DNA from: Clostridiales bacterium
GTDB taxonomy: Bacteria > Bacillota > Clostridia > Christensenellales > SZUA-584
NCBI GenBank assembly: GCA_029265435.1
Contig: JAJUJH010000009.1
Location: 1-37,274 of the forward strand
Length of the DNA stretch: 37,274 bases
Direction: 5' to 3'
A program made the position numbers and the translations under genes. Positions 29,817 to 33,635 of the stretch are shown one piece after another. The notes under the pieces were generated by a model, which searched no databases, was not told where the DNA came from, and saw only the letters and a list, made by a program, of their open reading frames with translations. Positions within the stretch are counted from its first letter, which is position 1, and each line of letters starts with the position of its first letter.

Positions 29817-30302
29817 GTGCTTATCGATACGGATCGTTTCGGGACCTTTGATACGAAGGACAGCAAGCTGATTGAGTTTCCGCAGGGGATTCCGGGCTTT
29901 GAAGACCTGCATTATTTTATTATTCTTGAGGTTTCTCAGACAAAGCCGATTTACTGGCTTCAGTCGACGGAGAACAAGTATATTGCACTGCCCGTCATAC
30001 TGACGTTTGAGATCCTCGACGATTATTACATCGATATTCGTGACAACGAGCTCGAGGAGCTTCATGTGGAGAGCCAGAACGATCTGCTGATTATGAACGT
30101 TGTGGTGATTCCCGAAACGATCGAGAAGATGACGGTAAATCTGGCGGCTCCTCTTGTCATCAATGCGGTTCGCGGAATCGGCAAGCAGATCATCGTGGAC
30201 GCAAAGACGATGCCCATCCGTATGCCGATTTACGAAGCCATCATGAAGAGCTTAGCCAAAGGGGGTCAGGACGATGCTGGTGCTGTCGAGAAAAACGGGT
30301 GA
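29817..30302 (+). CDS. fliW: Flagellar assembly factor FliW
   Basis: FliW binds flagellin and, when free, sequesters CsrA so that flagellin mRNA can be translated. The 161-residue beta-barrel protein shows GIPGFEDLHYFIILEVSQ and YWLQSTENKYIALPVILTF near the N-terminus and a C-terminal part with VVVIPETIEKMTVNLAAPLVIN, split around residues 93-120. The start is GTG at 29817, eight bases after GGAGGG. An ATG at 29810 is out of frame and too close to that site. It overlaps csrA by 29 bases, tying expression of the pair, and the flagellin gene it controls is next door on the other strand. Confidence 0.95.
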   Translation: MLIDTDRFGTFDTKDSKLIEFPQGIPGFEDLHYFIILEVSQTKPIYWLQSTENKYIALPVILTFEILDDYYIDIRDNELEELHVESQNDLLIMNVVVIPETIEKMTVNLAAPLVINAVRGIGKQIIVDAKTMPIRMPIYEAIMKSLAKGGQDDAGAVEKNG

Positions 30303-30480
30303 AGGGATTGTGCTTGACCAGAATATCGAGATCGAAGTGCTGGCTATTGAGGGGGATCGCGTTCGCATCGGCATCAAAGCGCCAAAGGAAATGCGCATTT
30401 ACCGCAAAGAATTGTTTGAAGAAACCATTGATTTAAACCGCGCGGCTTCCAAGACGCCCGCGATCACATTCGGCAAATAG
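30274..30480 (+). CDS. csrA: RNA-binding translational repressor CsrA
   Basis: CsrA dimers bind GGA motifs in mRNA leaders and block ribosomes. The 68-residue protein has the full family sequence: MLVLSRKTGEGIVLDQNIEIEV (residues 1-22), GDRVRIGIKAPKEMRIYRKELFEE (about 28-51) and a short polar tail. The RNA-binding residues at the start (L4, R6) and the arginine in the later RIYRKE segment are present. AAAGGGGG precedes the ATG inside fliW. A strong terminator follows. In Bacillus the target is the flagellin mRNA, and the fliC leader in this window has matching GGA motifs. Confidence 0.96.
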   Translation: MLVLSRKTGEGIVLDQNIEIEVLAIEGDRVRIGIKAPKEMRIYRKELFEETIDLNRAASKTPAITFGK

Positions 30481-30683: not shown

Positions 30684-31820
30684 TTACTTGAGCAGCGAAA
30701 GCACGTTCTGCGGAGCGGAATTCGCCTGAGCCAGCATCGCCGTGGCGGCCTGGACCAGTATGTTCTCCGTTGTGAACTTGGTCATCTCCTGAGCCATGTC
30801 GATGTCGCGGATGCGGCTCTCGGCAGCCTGCAGGTTTTCGGCCGACGTGTCAAGGTTGTTGATCTTGTGATCAAGCCTGTTCTGGATAGCGCCGAGTTTG
30901 GCACGCTGAGTCGACACGGTGTTGATCGCAGTCTGAATGGAAGTGATGGCGGTTGACGCGCCGTCGCGAGTGCTGATATCAAGCGTGTCAAGACCAAGAT
31001 CGTCCGACTGCATCGAGCCTATGGAGATATCCAGCGTCTCAGCCTCGTTCGCGCCCGTCTGGACTTTCGCGGCAGCCTGGCTGACGGTGAAATCAAGCGT
31101 ATCGCCGTCGGTGAAAGCCGCGTGTGTTGCATCGAACTCGAAGGTGACGGATCCGTATTGACCGTTGGCTCCGAAGCTGATCGTCAGGCTCTTTGCAGCC
31201 GCACCGGTCGGGTTTGCGCCTGTGAATACTTCATTACCCGCAAGATCGCCGCCCGACAGCGTATAAGTGCCGGCGCCGGAATCGTAAGCGATGCTGTAGG
31301 CCGTAGCGCTGGACGCAAAGCCTTCGAATTTGATCGATTTGATGCCGTTGTCGAATGCCTGGATCTCACTGTTCGTCGTATCGACTGTGGCGATTGTTCC
31401 GAACGAACCGTCAAGAAGCTTCTTGTTGTTGAACGTCGTCTTGTTGGCGATGTCGTTGATTTCGCTGCGCAGAGCGTCAAACTCATCCTGCAAAGCGTTG
31501 CGGTCGATGCCTTCGTTCGTGTCGGAAGCCGACTGAACTGCCAGCTCGTTCATACGCTGAAGAATGGAATGCGTTTCTGTGAGCGCGCCTTCGGCGGTCT
31601 GCACGAGCGAGATCGCGTCCTGGCTGTTTTTGGAAGCCATGTTGAGGCCGCGGATCTGGGCTCTCATCTTCTCGGAGATCGCAAGACCGGCGGCGTCGTC
31701 ACCGGCGCGGTTGATCTTGTAGCCCGAGGACAGTCTTTCCGTCGACTTCGCGACGTTGTTGTTGTTGATCGCGTACTGGCGATGGGTATTCATCGCCATA
31801 ATGTTGTTGTTGATTCTCAT
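30684..31820 (-). CDS. fliC: Flagellin FliC (Hag)
   Basis: Flagellin is the filament subunit. The 378-residue protein has the conserved N-terminal domain MRINNNIMAMNTHRQ, then SGYKINRAGDDAAGLAISEK (about 30-50). A variable surface domain lies at about 150-290. The C-terminal domain ends NILVQAATAMLAQANSAPQ, then NVLSLLK. The start at 31820 follows GGAGG by eight bases; the open frame extends upstream but that stretch is the leader RNA, not flagellin. It stands alone on the minus strand, convergent with fliW-csrA and divergent from fliF. It has its own sigma-D-like promoter, a structured leader and two downstream hairpins, fitting a highly expressed, checkpoint-controlled gene. Only one flagellin gene is seen. 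Confidence 0.97.
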   Translation of the reverse strand: MRINNNIMAMNTHRQYAINNNNVAKSTERLSSGYKINRAGDDAAGLAISEKMRAQIRGLNMASKNSQDAISLVQTAEGALTETHSILQRMNELAVQSASDTNEGIDRNALQDEFDALRSEINDIANKTTFNNKKLLDGSFGTIATVDTTNSEIQAFDNGIKSIKFEGFASSATAYSIAYDSGAGTYTLSGGDLAGNEVFTGANPTGAAAKSLTISFGANGQYGSVTFEFDATHAAFTDGDTLDFTVSQAAAKVQTGANEAETLDISIGSMQSDDLGLDTLDISTRDGASTAITSIQTAINTVSTQRAKLGAIQNRLDHKINNLDTSAENLQAAESRIRDIDMAQEMTKFTTENILVQAATAMLAQANSAPQNVLSLLK

Positions 31821-31828
31821 TTCTTTTT

Positions 31829-31836
31829 CCTCCATG
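31829..31836 (-). promoter_or_regulatory. CsrA-type motif at the fliC ribosome site
   Basis: CATGGAGG on the minus strand (31836-31829) contains the GGAGG ribosome site of fliC within a CATGGA motif identical to the two upstream copies. Binding here would block translation directly. Confidence 0.6.
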
Positions 31837-31847
31837 AAAATGTTTTT

Positions 31848-31863
31848 AGAGCATCCATGCTCT
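31848..31863 (-). promoter_or_regulatory. CsrA-type hairpin in the fliC leader (proximal)
   Basis: AGAGCA-TGGA-TGCTCT on the minus strand is a six-pair stem with GGA exposed in the loop, the preferred presentation for CsrA. The sequence CATGGATG matches the core of the known CsrA consensus (ACARGGAUG) at most positions. The GGA lies about 20 bases upstream of the one in the ribosome site. Confidence 0.65.
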
Positions 31864-31883
31864 TGTAACAACCACACCGGACG

Positions 31884-31913
31884 ATGGCGCCACGATCATC
31901 CATGTTTGGCCAT
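31884..31913 (-). promoter_or_regulatory. CsrA-type hairpin in the fliC leader (distal)
   Basis: On the minus strand ATGGCCA pairs with TGGCGCCAT (two bulged bases) around a 14-base loop holding CATGGATG (31904-31897). It lies close to the predicted 5' end of the transcript. It is a second copy of the motif in the proximal hairpin. Confidence 0.5.
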
Positions 31914-31923
31914 TACATCATAT

Positions 31924-31950
31924 ATATCGTCACATTTGGCGGCGACTTAA
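31924..31950 (-). promoter_or_regulatory. Sigma-D-like promoter of fliC
   Basis: On the minus strand TTAA (31950-31947), 15 bases, then GACGATAT (31931-31924) differ from the consensus by one base in each element. The predicted leader is about 97 bases. Flagellin genes are the classical sigma-D target, which supports the call. Confidence 0.65.
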
Positions 31951-32051: not shown

Positions 32052-33635
32052 ATGGCGAATGCGATAACAAAATTACCTTCAAAAATTGCGGAATCCTACA
32101 AAAAACTGACCAAAGGGCAAAAGGTTCGCCTTTTTGTGCTGATTGCCATCATTCTTGCGATCATCATCGTCGTTTCGATATTTCTCAATCAGAAAAATTA
32201 CGTTGTGGTTTTTGCGGGAAGCGCCGCGGATGCGGGCGAAGTGATGACGGCGCTCGACGACATGGGCGTAAGCTACAAGACGCAGGGCACCGGCACGATA
32301 CTCGTTGAAGAGAGCGCGGCTTCGGGCGTGAAGATGGAGCTTGCGGCGAAAGGGTATCCGAGCGGCGGCTACAGCAACGATATATTCCAGAGCGCATCCG
32401 GCCTTGGCGTGACGGATATGGAGAAGAAAAAATACTGGGTGCTCCAGCAGCAGGAGAACATCAGGCGGAATCTGAAAACGCTGAACAAGGTTGACGACGC
32501 GCTTGTGAATCTGGACATTCCGGATGAGAGCGCTTTCGCGCTGTCGGACGACGAGAAAAAGCCGTCGGCGTCGGTGACGCTGGTATTGAAAGACGGTCAA
32601 AGCCTTACCGAGAGCGAAGTGCAGACGGTGTGCGATATTGTGACAGGCGCCGTATCGGGAATGGAGCCCGAAGATGTGCGGATTGTGGACTCTCAGATGC
32701 GCAATTACAGCACGGGCAGCGACAGCACGTCGGCCAATGTGGACACACAGCTTGGGCTTCAGGATGCCGTCGCGCAGAATCTGCAGTCGCAGGTCATCAA
32801 TCTGCTGACGCCTGTTTTCGGCGCGGACAACATTCGCGCGACGGTCAACGTTACGCTGAATTTTGACGACAAGACAACCGAAACGGTGGAATTCGCGCCT
32901 CCCGCCGGCGGAACGGAGGGGCTTGCGGTCAGCATGTCGGATCTTGTCGAGGCGATCAAAAACAACGGCAGCGGCAGCGTGGCGGGAATCGACGCAAACG
33001 GCACCGCGTCGGAATATCTCAATTCGCTTCAGGACGACGCGGACAATTCGGTCTATTACCAGGCGTCGCATGACGTGAACTACGAGCTGAACAAGACGAA
33101 CAAAACCATTGTGGAAGCCAAAGGCAAAATCGAAAAGCTGTCCGTCGCCGTGCTGATCAATGAAGATTCGGCGGATGACTACACCGACGAGGTTACGGAG
33201 CTTGTCGCGACGGCGCTTGGGGTGGACAAAGAGCATATCACCGTCAGCATGCTGCCGTTCGCGAAGGTTGACGAAACGGCGGTTCAGGACGCTCTGGCGG
33301 ATCAGCAGGACGCGCTGAACCGCATACAAAGCGCGGAAACAACGCGCATGCTCATCATACTTGCCACGGTGCTCGTGGTGATGATATTCCTTTTCATGAT
33401 ATTCAAAATGTTTAAAAAGAAGCCCGAGCCGGCGCTTGCCGAGGGAGGGTTTGAGTATATTGCGGACGAGGAGATCATACCGGGCGAACCGGAACAGGTA
33501 ATACAGTCGTTTGACGACATTAAGCTTGAGGATTTTGAAAAAACGGACAACAAGCTTGCCATACTTGAAGACTATATCGGCAAAAATCCCGAATCCGTGG
33601 CAAACCTGCTGCGCAACTGGCTGAACGAGGATTAG
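32052..33635 (+). CDS. fliF: Flagellar MS-ring protein FliF
   Basis: FliF forms the MS ring, the base on which the flagellum is built. The 527-residue protein has membrane segments at about 26-46 and 432-453. Between them is the extracellular ring-building region with SGVKMELAAKGYPSGGYS-type sequence near residue 96, QEN(I)RRNLKTLNKVDDALVNLDIP (about 134-157), and a long variable loop. The C-terminal tail AILEDYIGKNPESVANLLRNWL binds FliG. It heads the fliF-fliG-fliH-fliI-fliJ run. AGGAAG precedes the ATG. Unlike in Bacillus, flgB-flgC-fliE are not upstream; they lie 18 kb away. Confidence 0.96.
   Translation: MANAITKLPSKIAESYKKLTKGQKVRLFVLIAIILAIIIVVSIFLNQKNYVVVFAGSAADAGEVMTALDDMGVSYKTQGTGTILVEESAASGVKMELAAKGYPSGGYSNDIFQSASGLGVTDMEKKKYWVLQQQENIRRNLKTLNKVDDALVNLDIPDESAFALSDDEKKPSASVTLVLKDGQSLTESEVQTVCDIVTGAVSGMEPEDVRIVDSQMRNYSTGSDSTSANVDTQLGLQDAVAQNLQSQVINLLTPVFGADNIRATVNVTLNFDDKTTETVEFAPPAGGTEGLAVSMSDLVEAIKNNGSGSVAGIDANGTASEYLNSLQDDADNSVYYQASHDVNYELNKTNKTIVEAKGKIEKLSVAVLINEDSADDYTDEVTELVATALGVDKEHITVSMLPFAKVDETAVQDALADQQDALNRIQSAETTRMLIILATVLVVMIFLFMIFKMFKKKPEPALAEGGFEYIADEEIIPGEPEQVIQSFDDIKLEDFEKTDNKLAILEDYIGKNPESVANLLRNWLNED

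Follow-up and report, generated by a model that had tools for sequence, protein, structure and literature searches.

The window analyzed here, namely the whole stretch of 37,274 nucleotides from a Clostridiales bacterium, is a flagellar gene region with flgK- and flgL-like genes, fliW, csrA, a flagellin gene, and fliF (Table 1); fliW, csrA, and the flagellin gene were identified by Pfam, and the identities of flgK, flgL, and fliF were read off the translations only. The flagellin gene is convergent with csrA, and fliF starts at 32052 on the plus strand, divergently from the flagellin gene. This flagellin is the single close match in the genome, and the other match to Flagellin_N is flgL-like. 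The adjacency of the fliW-csrA pair to its flagellin target, which had been claimed in an initial annotation, is borne out by the Pfam matches to FliW and CsrA. Also, the CsrA protein of the window retains Asn at position 55 (as counted in the translation), and the N55D change renders B. subtilis CsrA deficient in binding FliW (PMC6529632).

Table 1. Genes and regulatory elements of the flagellin locus in the window.
Feature	Position	Strand	Basis or remark
fliW, CsrA antagonist	29817-30302	+	Pfam FliW 1e-37
csrA	30274-30480	+	Pfam CsrA 4.3e-23
flagellin gene (fliC/hag), regulated gene	30684..31820, ATG 31820-31818	-	Pfam Flagellin_N 1.1e-47, Flagellin_C 2e-29
CsrA site BS2 CATGGAGG, overlapping the ribosome-binding site	31829..31836	-	sequence, conservation
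proximal hairpin AGAGCAUGGAUGCUCU presenting CsrA site BS1 (CATGGATG at 31859-31852)	31848..31863	-	sequence, fold, conservation
distal long imperfect hairpin carrying the palindromic apical loop	31864..31917	-	fold -23.7 kcal/mol, z -3.0
GGCGCC self-complementary hexamer, apical loop, proposed kissing-loop contact	31886..31891	-	position conserved, letters vary, palindrome kept
distal CATGGATG	31897..31904	-	within the stem of the distal hairpin; GGA pairing probability 1.0
sigma28-type -10 element GACGATAT	31924..31931	-	sequence; inferred from consensus
sigma28-type -35 element TTAA	31947..31950	-	sequence; inferred from consensus

The putative promoter of the flagellin gene has a spacing of 15 nt between TTAA and GACGATAT, and the transcript is expected to start near 31921-31917; the same promoter type precedes the flagellin leaders of the relatives. 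In the interval that separates fliF from the divergent flagellin gene, we also noticed a tandem direct repeat, two copies of TTAGTGTCGATC at 32013-31990 (minus strand). Just 5' of the flagellin promoter (about 31967-31951, minus strand) lies a TGAATCATTTTTTTG stretch, which is kept in three genomes of the same genus (the window, L004, and L005) and may be part of the fliF or flagellin promoter.

For comparison, flagellin leaders were gathered by flagellin homology, blind to any motif, from relatives of the window at the level of genus, family, order, and class and from two further groups, namely the class to which a Cohnella genome belongs (referred to here as Bacilli) and the phylum that includes a Caldanaerobacter genome. 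The set used for the statistics consists of the 238 Bacillota flagellin leaders with a recognizable promoter. In G002, a genome of the same genus as the window, the leader was identical in sequence to L065, which is on a Christensenellaceae MAG contig. Two group I introns (Rfam RF00028) were furthermore seen near the flagellin gene of G537 (L162, 36-373 and 496-841, minus strand).

The B. subtilis hag leader has two CsrA sites, BS1 and BS2, and is regulated by CsrA with FliW as the antagonist (Yakhnin 2007, via PMC8523840, PMC7652899). As in leaders of this hag type, a motif at the ribosome site, an upstream site in a hairpin loop, and both csrA and fliW with Asn55 were found in the window. 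The three motifs pointed out in the initial annotation, two copies of CATGGATG and one of CATGGAGG on the minus strand, are located where it had placed them, all 5' of the flagellin ATG; every one of them matches the core CANGGANG, and CATGGA occurs 20 times in the window, with 20.7 expected, and thus shows no enrichment. Its description of the proximal copy as the loop of a perfect hairpin is also correct: the hairpin is GAGC[AUGGAU]GCUC with an ANGGAN hexaloop, and the predicted pairing probability of GGA is 0.0 there and 0.02-0.03 at the ribosome site. The two sites are 23 nt apart, which is inside the range of 10-63 nt bridged by a CsrA dimer (PMC7652899). Among the 238 leaders, a BS1-type ANGGA in a hairpin 5' of the ribosome site is present in 203, and CANGGAGG at the ribosome site in 211. 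This conservation strongly supports the earlier proposal of a leader controlled by CsrA and FliW, in which the proximal hairpin site and the ribosome site would be the canonical CsrA pair. In terms of CsrA, the leader is of an already known kind, an ordinary two-site switch.

CsrA-like sites were also found in flagellin leaders of Spirochaetes and the Desulfovibrio phylum. A genome-wide DNA pattern scan gave 116 matches, most of them by chance, and its loci were left out of the statistics because the GGSSCC part of the pattern biased the loops; the scan showed the two-site CsrA layout 5' of flagellin in many phyla. Specifically, GCANGGAYGC followed by CANGGAGGA was observed before flagellin in Actinobacteria, Desulfovibrio, Spirochaetes, Myxococcales, and Hydrogenedentota (e.g., L034, L042, L052, L059, L074, L076, and L081). 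The occurrence of this layout in so many phyla suggests that the control of flagellin by CsrA is very widespread.

Upstream of the two CsrA sites, the first 58 nt of the window leader are taken up by a long imperfect hairpin, and the upstream feature that is conserved among the near relatives is GGCGCC in its loop, not GGA. The loop of the window is among the weaker ones, with 3 nt before the hexamer, 0 after it, and, in the predicted fold, weak pairing of two letters of the hexamer. In unconstrained folds of four of the seven window relatives (L005, L006, L008, and L024), the hexamer is wholly unpaired in the apical loop; the unconstrained fold of L004 differs from these four. When the hexamer was held open, it became apical in 155 of 171 leaders, compared with 118 of 625 random positions. 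A search of the window leader against Rfam 15 gave no match above the gathering score (at E<=10, two matches, far below the gathering scores), and the leaders at 16 loci of relatives had no Rfam family either.

A hairpin with a palindromic loop is present across Clostridia, Bacilli, and other Bacillota, and its hexamer is positioned approximately 20-40 nt past the promoter, at a median of 34 nt 5' of BS1. The letters of the hexamer vary with the palindrome kept: namely, CGGCCG, GGGCCC, GGCGCC, GCCGGC, UGGCCA, and CGUACG were found class-wide, to which Bacilli and the wider phylum add CGCGCG and CCCGGG, and Caldanaerobacter subterraneus (L040) has ACAGUU-GGCGCC-AACUGU. Typical loops are AG-CGGCCG-G (9 nt), A-GGGCCC, and, in Bacilli, G-CGNNCG-A (8 nt; NN is GC, CG, or UA), and the hexamer in AG-CGGCCG-G and G-CGNNCG-A is flanked by unpaired purines. 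In the genus g178, L206 and L220 have CGGCCG and the otherwise similar L211 has CGUACG, corresponding to a compensatory switch. Two genomes are equipped with two separate flagellin leaders that have the same hexamer on different stems (CGGCCG in L164/L198 of G413, and UGGCCA in L200/L201 of G501). The tandem flagellins of G405 (L148) have GGCGCC in one leader and AGGUGCU in that of the paralogue; GGUGCU in the latter is a G-U wobble palindrome and, by its letters, could pair with GGCGCC as well.

In the 113 Clostridia leaders, GC-rich perfect palindromes within nt 8-60 were found in 83, whereas 200 dinucleotide shuffles gave 22.8 (sd 4.1, max 35); palindromes with a flanking stem numbered 49, against 2.5 in the shuffles (max 7). 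In this test, 30 of 37 families were positive. We also chose the best hairpin of each of the 238 leaders by its stem alone and read the loop afterwards, by which a palindromic hexamer was found in 54 of 140 loops, while 12.8 (max 21) were obtained by permuting the loop letters and 4.1 (max 9) in shuffled leaders. In another test, one hexamer per leader was picked on the basis of a flanking stem and the two outer G/C pairs, with the inner letters hidden. The inner pair proved self-complementary in 95 of 104 cases against an expectation of 26, in 22 of 23 when one leader was taken per Clostridia family, and in 59 of 65 after removal of leaders with similar flanks, this de-replication being the only adjustment of the P values for the tree; a similar count of inner pairs 5' of promoters, as a control, gave 15 of 44. 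On the results of the loop-permutation and inner-dinucleotide tests, we reject mere GC-richness as the source of the palindromes.

The stems covary, furthermore. In 26 Bacilli leaders with 8-nt loops (A1), 83.7% of the cells are paired with a score of 0.510 (at most 0.216 with slid partners), and in 11 leaders with 9-nt loops, nearly all from Clostridia (A2), 91.9% are paired with a score of 0.541 (at most 0.193). The hexamer helix, which is 100% in A1 and A2, is not independent evidence because both sets were selected by the hexamer; the window itself, with its 3,0 loop type, is outside both sets. In these comparisons, what is conserved is the hairpin at its position together with a loop that remains self-complementary, whereas the sequences of the loop and stem change.

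Outside Bacillota, palindromic loops are near background, with 3 of 18 in Spirochaetes (1.2 expected) and 1 of 13 in the Desulfovibrio phylum (0.4 expected). Even within Bacillota, the Clostridia family f72 and part of f58 either lack the hairpin or have a non-palindromic one, and L507-L509, the three leaders nearest to B. subtilis hag, have no hairpin with a palindromic loop; the hairpin is therefore not essential to the control of flagellin. Also, the hexamer depends only loosely on the CsrA site, since it occurs in 151 of the 203 leaders that have BS1 and in 20 of the 35 that lack it.

Since the palindrome in the loop is unable to pair within its own loop, selection for it suggests that a second copy is its pairing partner; the dimerization initiation site (DIS) of HIV-1 and oskar mRNA operate on this principle (PMC7357161). 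We infer dimerization, and every functional consequence of it described here, from the comparison of sequences. The element has an apical self-complementary hexamer, a palindrome kept under sequence change, and covariation of the stem, as is expected of a kissing loop. The duplex energies of the hexamers are favorable (-6.4 to -12.5 kcal/mol), as scored for a duplex and not by a kissing-loop model, and cofolding of the leaders gave an extended duplex, with kissing loops being outside the model. In the downstream part of the leader, we propose, a CsrA dimer bound to the BS1 loop and BS2 would block translation, and FliW would take CsrA off the leader. Near the 5' end, the apical hexamers of two flagellin mRNAs (GGCGCC in the window) would pair to form a kissing-loop homodimer; in genomes having two leaders with the same hexamer, such as G413 and G501, a mixed dimer would be possible. 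The flagellin mRNA is very abundant, so that the contact between the loops would be made at high concentration and might then tune the binding of CsrA, the stability of the mRNA, or its clustering. Candidate roles thus include altered binding of the CsrA dimer, concentration-dependent control, stability, and clustering of flagellin mRNA; the flaA mRNA of C. jejuni is known to gather at the poles (PMC4894983). We lean, by a narrow margin of belief, toward flagellin mRNAs throughout Bacillota forming homodimers via a kissing loop in the 5' leader directly 5' of the CsrA switch.

Alternatively, a dimeric protein might bind the hairpin RNA, or a DNA inverted repeat just 3' of the promoter, and the palindrome would then mirror the symmetry of the protein. 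A palindrome with a constant spacing to a promoter is a typical operator feature, the G-hexamer-A loop of Bacilli is symmetric with its stem, and an unexplained binding of FliW to the hag leader has been reported (PMC6529632). A protein, however, would conserve sequence, whereas the hexamers differ widely and the stems pair without any common sequence; the axis of the hexamer is off that of the stem in the 9-nt and 7-nt loops of Clostridia, and the B. subtilis-group leaders have no hexamer even though the binding of FliW was reported for hag of B. subtilis. We thus regard a protein partner as unlikely; a DNA operator, in particular, is disfavored by the variable sequences and off-axis loops. 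A little less likely again is an ordinary 5' stabilizer of an abundant mRNA, namely an inverted repeat that is near-perfect up to its center and leaves a palindromic loop with no role of its own. While the location of the hairpin close to the start of a highly abundant mRNA and the perfect inverted repeats in some cases (hexamer offsets 0,0) would suit such a stabilizer, it does not account for the central letters, which are unable to pair intramolecularly and yet are complementary in 95 of 104 leaders, for the palindromes in loops flanked by unpaired purines past the end of the stem, or for the 54 palindromic loops against 12.8 by permutation of the loop letters. The loop might also pair in trans, mainly with the same palindrome on other transcripts (for example, of another flagellin gene or another sigma28 gene) rather than with itself; G413 and G501, each with one hexamer common to two flagellin leaders, would fit, but the window genome has one close flagellin match, and we consider this improbable. 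A pattern scan of the same genome for further GGCGCC leaders gave 136 matches, swamped by those in coding sequences.

In the initial annotation, the three CsrA sites were considered to constitute a stronger or stepwise CsrA/FliW switch, with a second hairpin holding the distal copy in its large loop. The distal CATGGATG does fit the CANGGANG core and is 45 nt from the next site, within the bridging range of 10-63 nt (PMC7652899). Its GGA is, however, paired in the predicted fold with a probability of 1.0, and not in a loop; a 5-bp AUGGC/GCCAU stem can be drawn around the copy, but the long imperfect hairpin is predicted instead. Alignment of the leader across relatives, which had been suggested as a check, showed BS1 and BS2 to be kept and the distal copy to be missing in the same-genus leaders L004 and L005 and in L006-L008. 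Nor is there an excess of distal ANGGA among the 238 leaders (73 vs 68.4 expected); a distal CANGGANG is found in 11 of the 238, five of which are from one genus, compared with 3.3 leaders in shuffles. Three or more GGAs are furthermore not new, given the four CsrA sites of glgC (PMC7652899), and C. jejuni flaA likewise has a third GGA to which CsrA gives no protection (PMC4894983). A three-site switch in the window species, which we find very hard to believe, is rejected on the grounds of conservation (absence in L004-L008 and no enrichment) and masking of GGA in the stem. The distal CATGGATG is probably not a CsrA site, and one extra copy of CATGGA in a leader is, roughly and by our own estimate, a 1-in-50 chance event. 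In the genus g167 of the family f58, the leaders L229, L232, L238, L240, and L245 have a common distal CCATGGAAG, which, on its sequence, might serve in these leaders as a true third CsrA site; other g167 leaders have a non-palindromic GCCAGCA loop in its place. With regard to the window, the motifs and the CsrA leader recognized earlier are real, and the lesson drawn from the third motif is wrong.

Taken as a whole, the explanation we hold to be probable is a two-site CsrA switch plus an upstream hairpin that would dimerize the flagellin mRNA, together with a distal CATGGA that would be a chance or lineage-specific copy within the stem of that hairpin. The loop of Hag, FliW, and CsrA is a textbook example of a homeostatic circuit and has been worked out mainly in B. 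subtilis; since the B. subtilis-like leaders examined lack the hairpin, the model organism would not have revealed it. If the loops kiss, paired messengers would be involved in the translation, decay, or placement of flagellin mRNA in most Bacillota, and the stoichiometry of CsrA (one dimer per leader) would need to be reconsidered. Homodimers are a rarity among natural RNAs (PMC7357161), and the dimer, if true, would be widespread in the mRNA leaders of bacteria, evolution having already sampled many natural palindromes. Such an element would be conserved by self-complementarity, not by sequence, and would escape sequence-based searches for RNA families. In the openly licensed literature, we found no paper on a palindromic or dimerizing flagellin leader, and no flagellin motif was found in four surveys of structured RNAs. 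The distal hairpin thus appears, in its anatomy and covariation, to be of the kissing-loop kind, for which no prior description or Rfam family was found; the value of the region is in the self-complementary hairpin holding the third motif, not in the third motif itself.

Among the known flagellin leaders, flaA of C. jejuni is similar in that CsrA binds two GGA hairpins, of which the second covers the ribosome site, and in having a further GGA without protection (PMC4894983). Its 45-nt leader has, however, two stem-loops only, and no hairpin with a self-complementary loop is described (PMC4894983). Like B. subtilis hag, the window has an upstream CsrA site plus one at the ribosome site, a fliW-csrA pair, and flagellin as the target; unlike the hag-like leaders L507-L509 with no palindromic-loop hairpin, it has the hairpin and an extra, non-conserved GGA.

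In the DIS of HIV-1, the palindrome is placed between unpaired purines, and the sequence of the loop varies with its self-complementarity kept. The flagellin hairpin resembles DIS in having a six-letter GC-rich palindrome in the loop (PMC7357161), whereas DIS belongs to a retroviral genome RNA and serves in packaging, and the flagellin hairpin, a putative dimerization element, is in a bacterial mRNA leader. OLE, ROOL, and GOLLD are likewise bacterial RNAs and form homo-oligomers, but they are large non-coding RNAs of unrelated structure and not mRNA leaders (PMC12286853). The kissing loop in the 3' UTR of oskar mRNA likewise presents a GC-rich palindrome of six letters, also within a messenger RNA, and its homodimerization supports localization (PMC7357161); in contrast to the eukaryotic oskar element in a 3' UTR, the flagellin hairpin is bacterial, resides in the 5' leader, and adjoins a CsrA switch.
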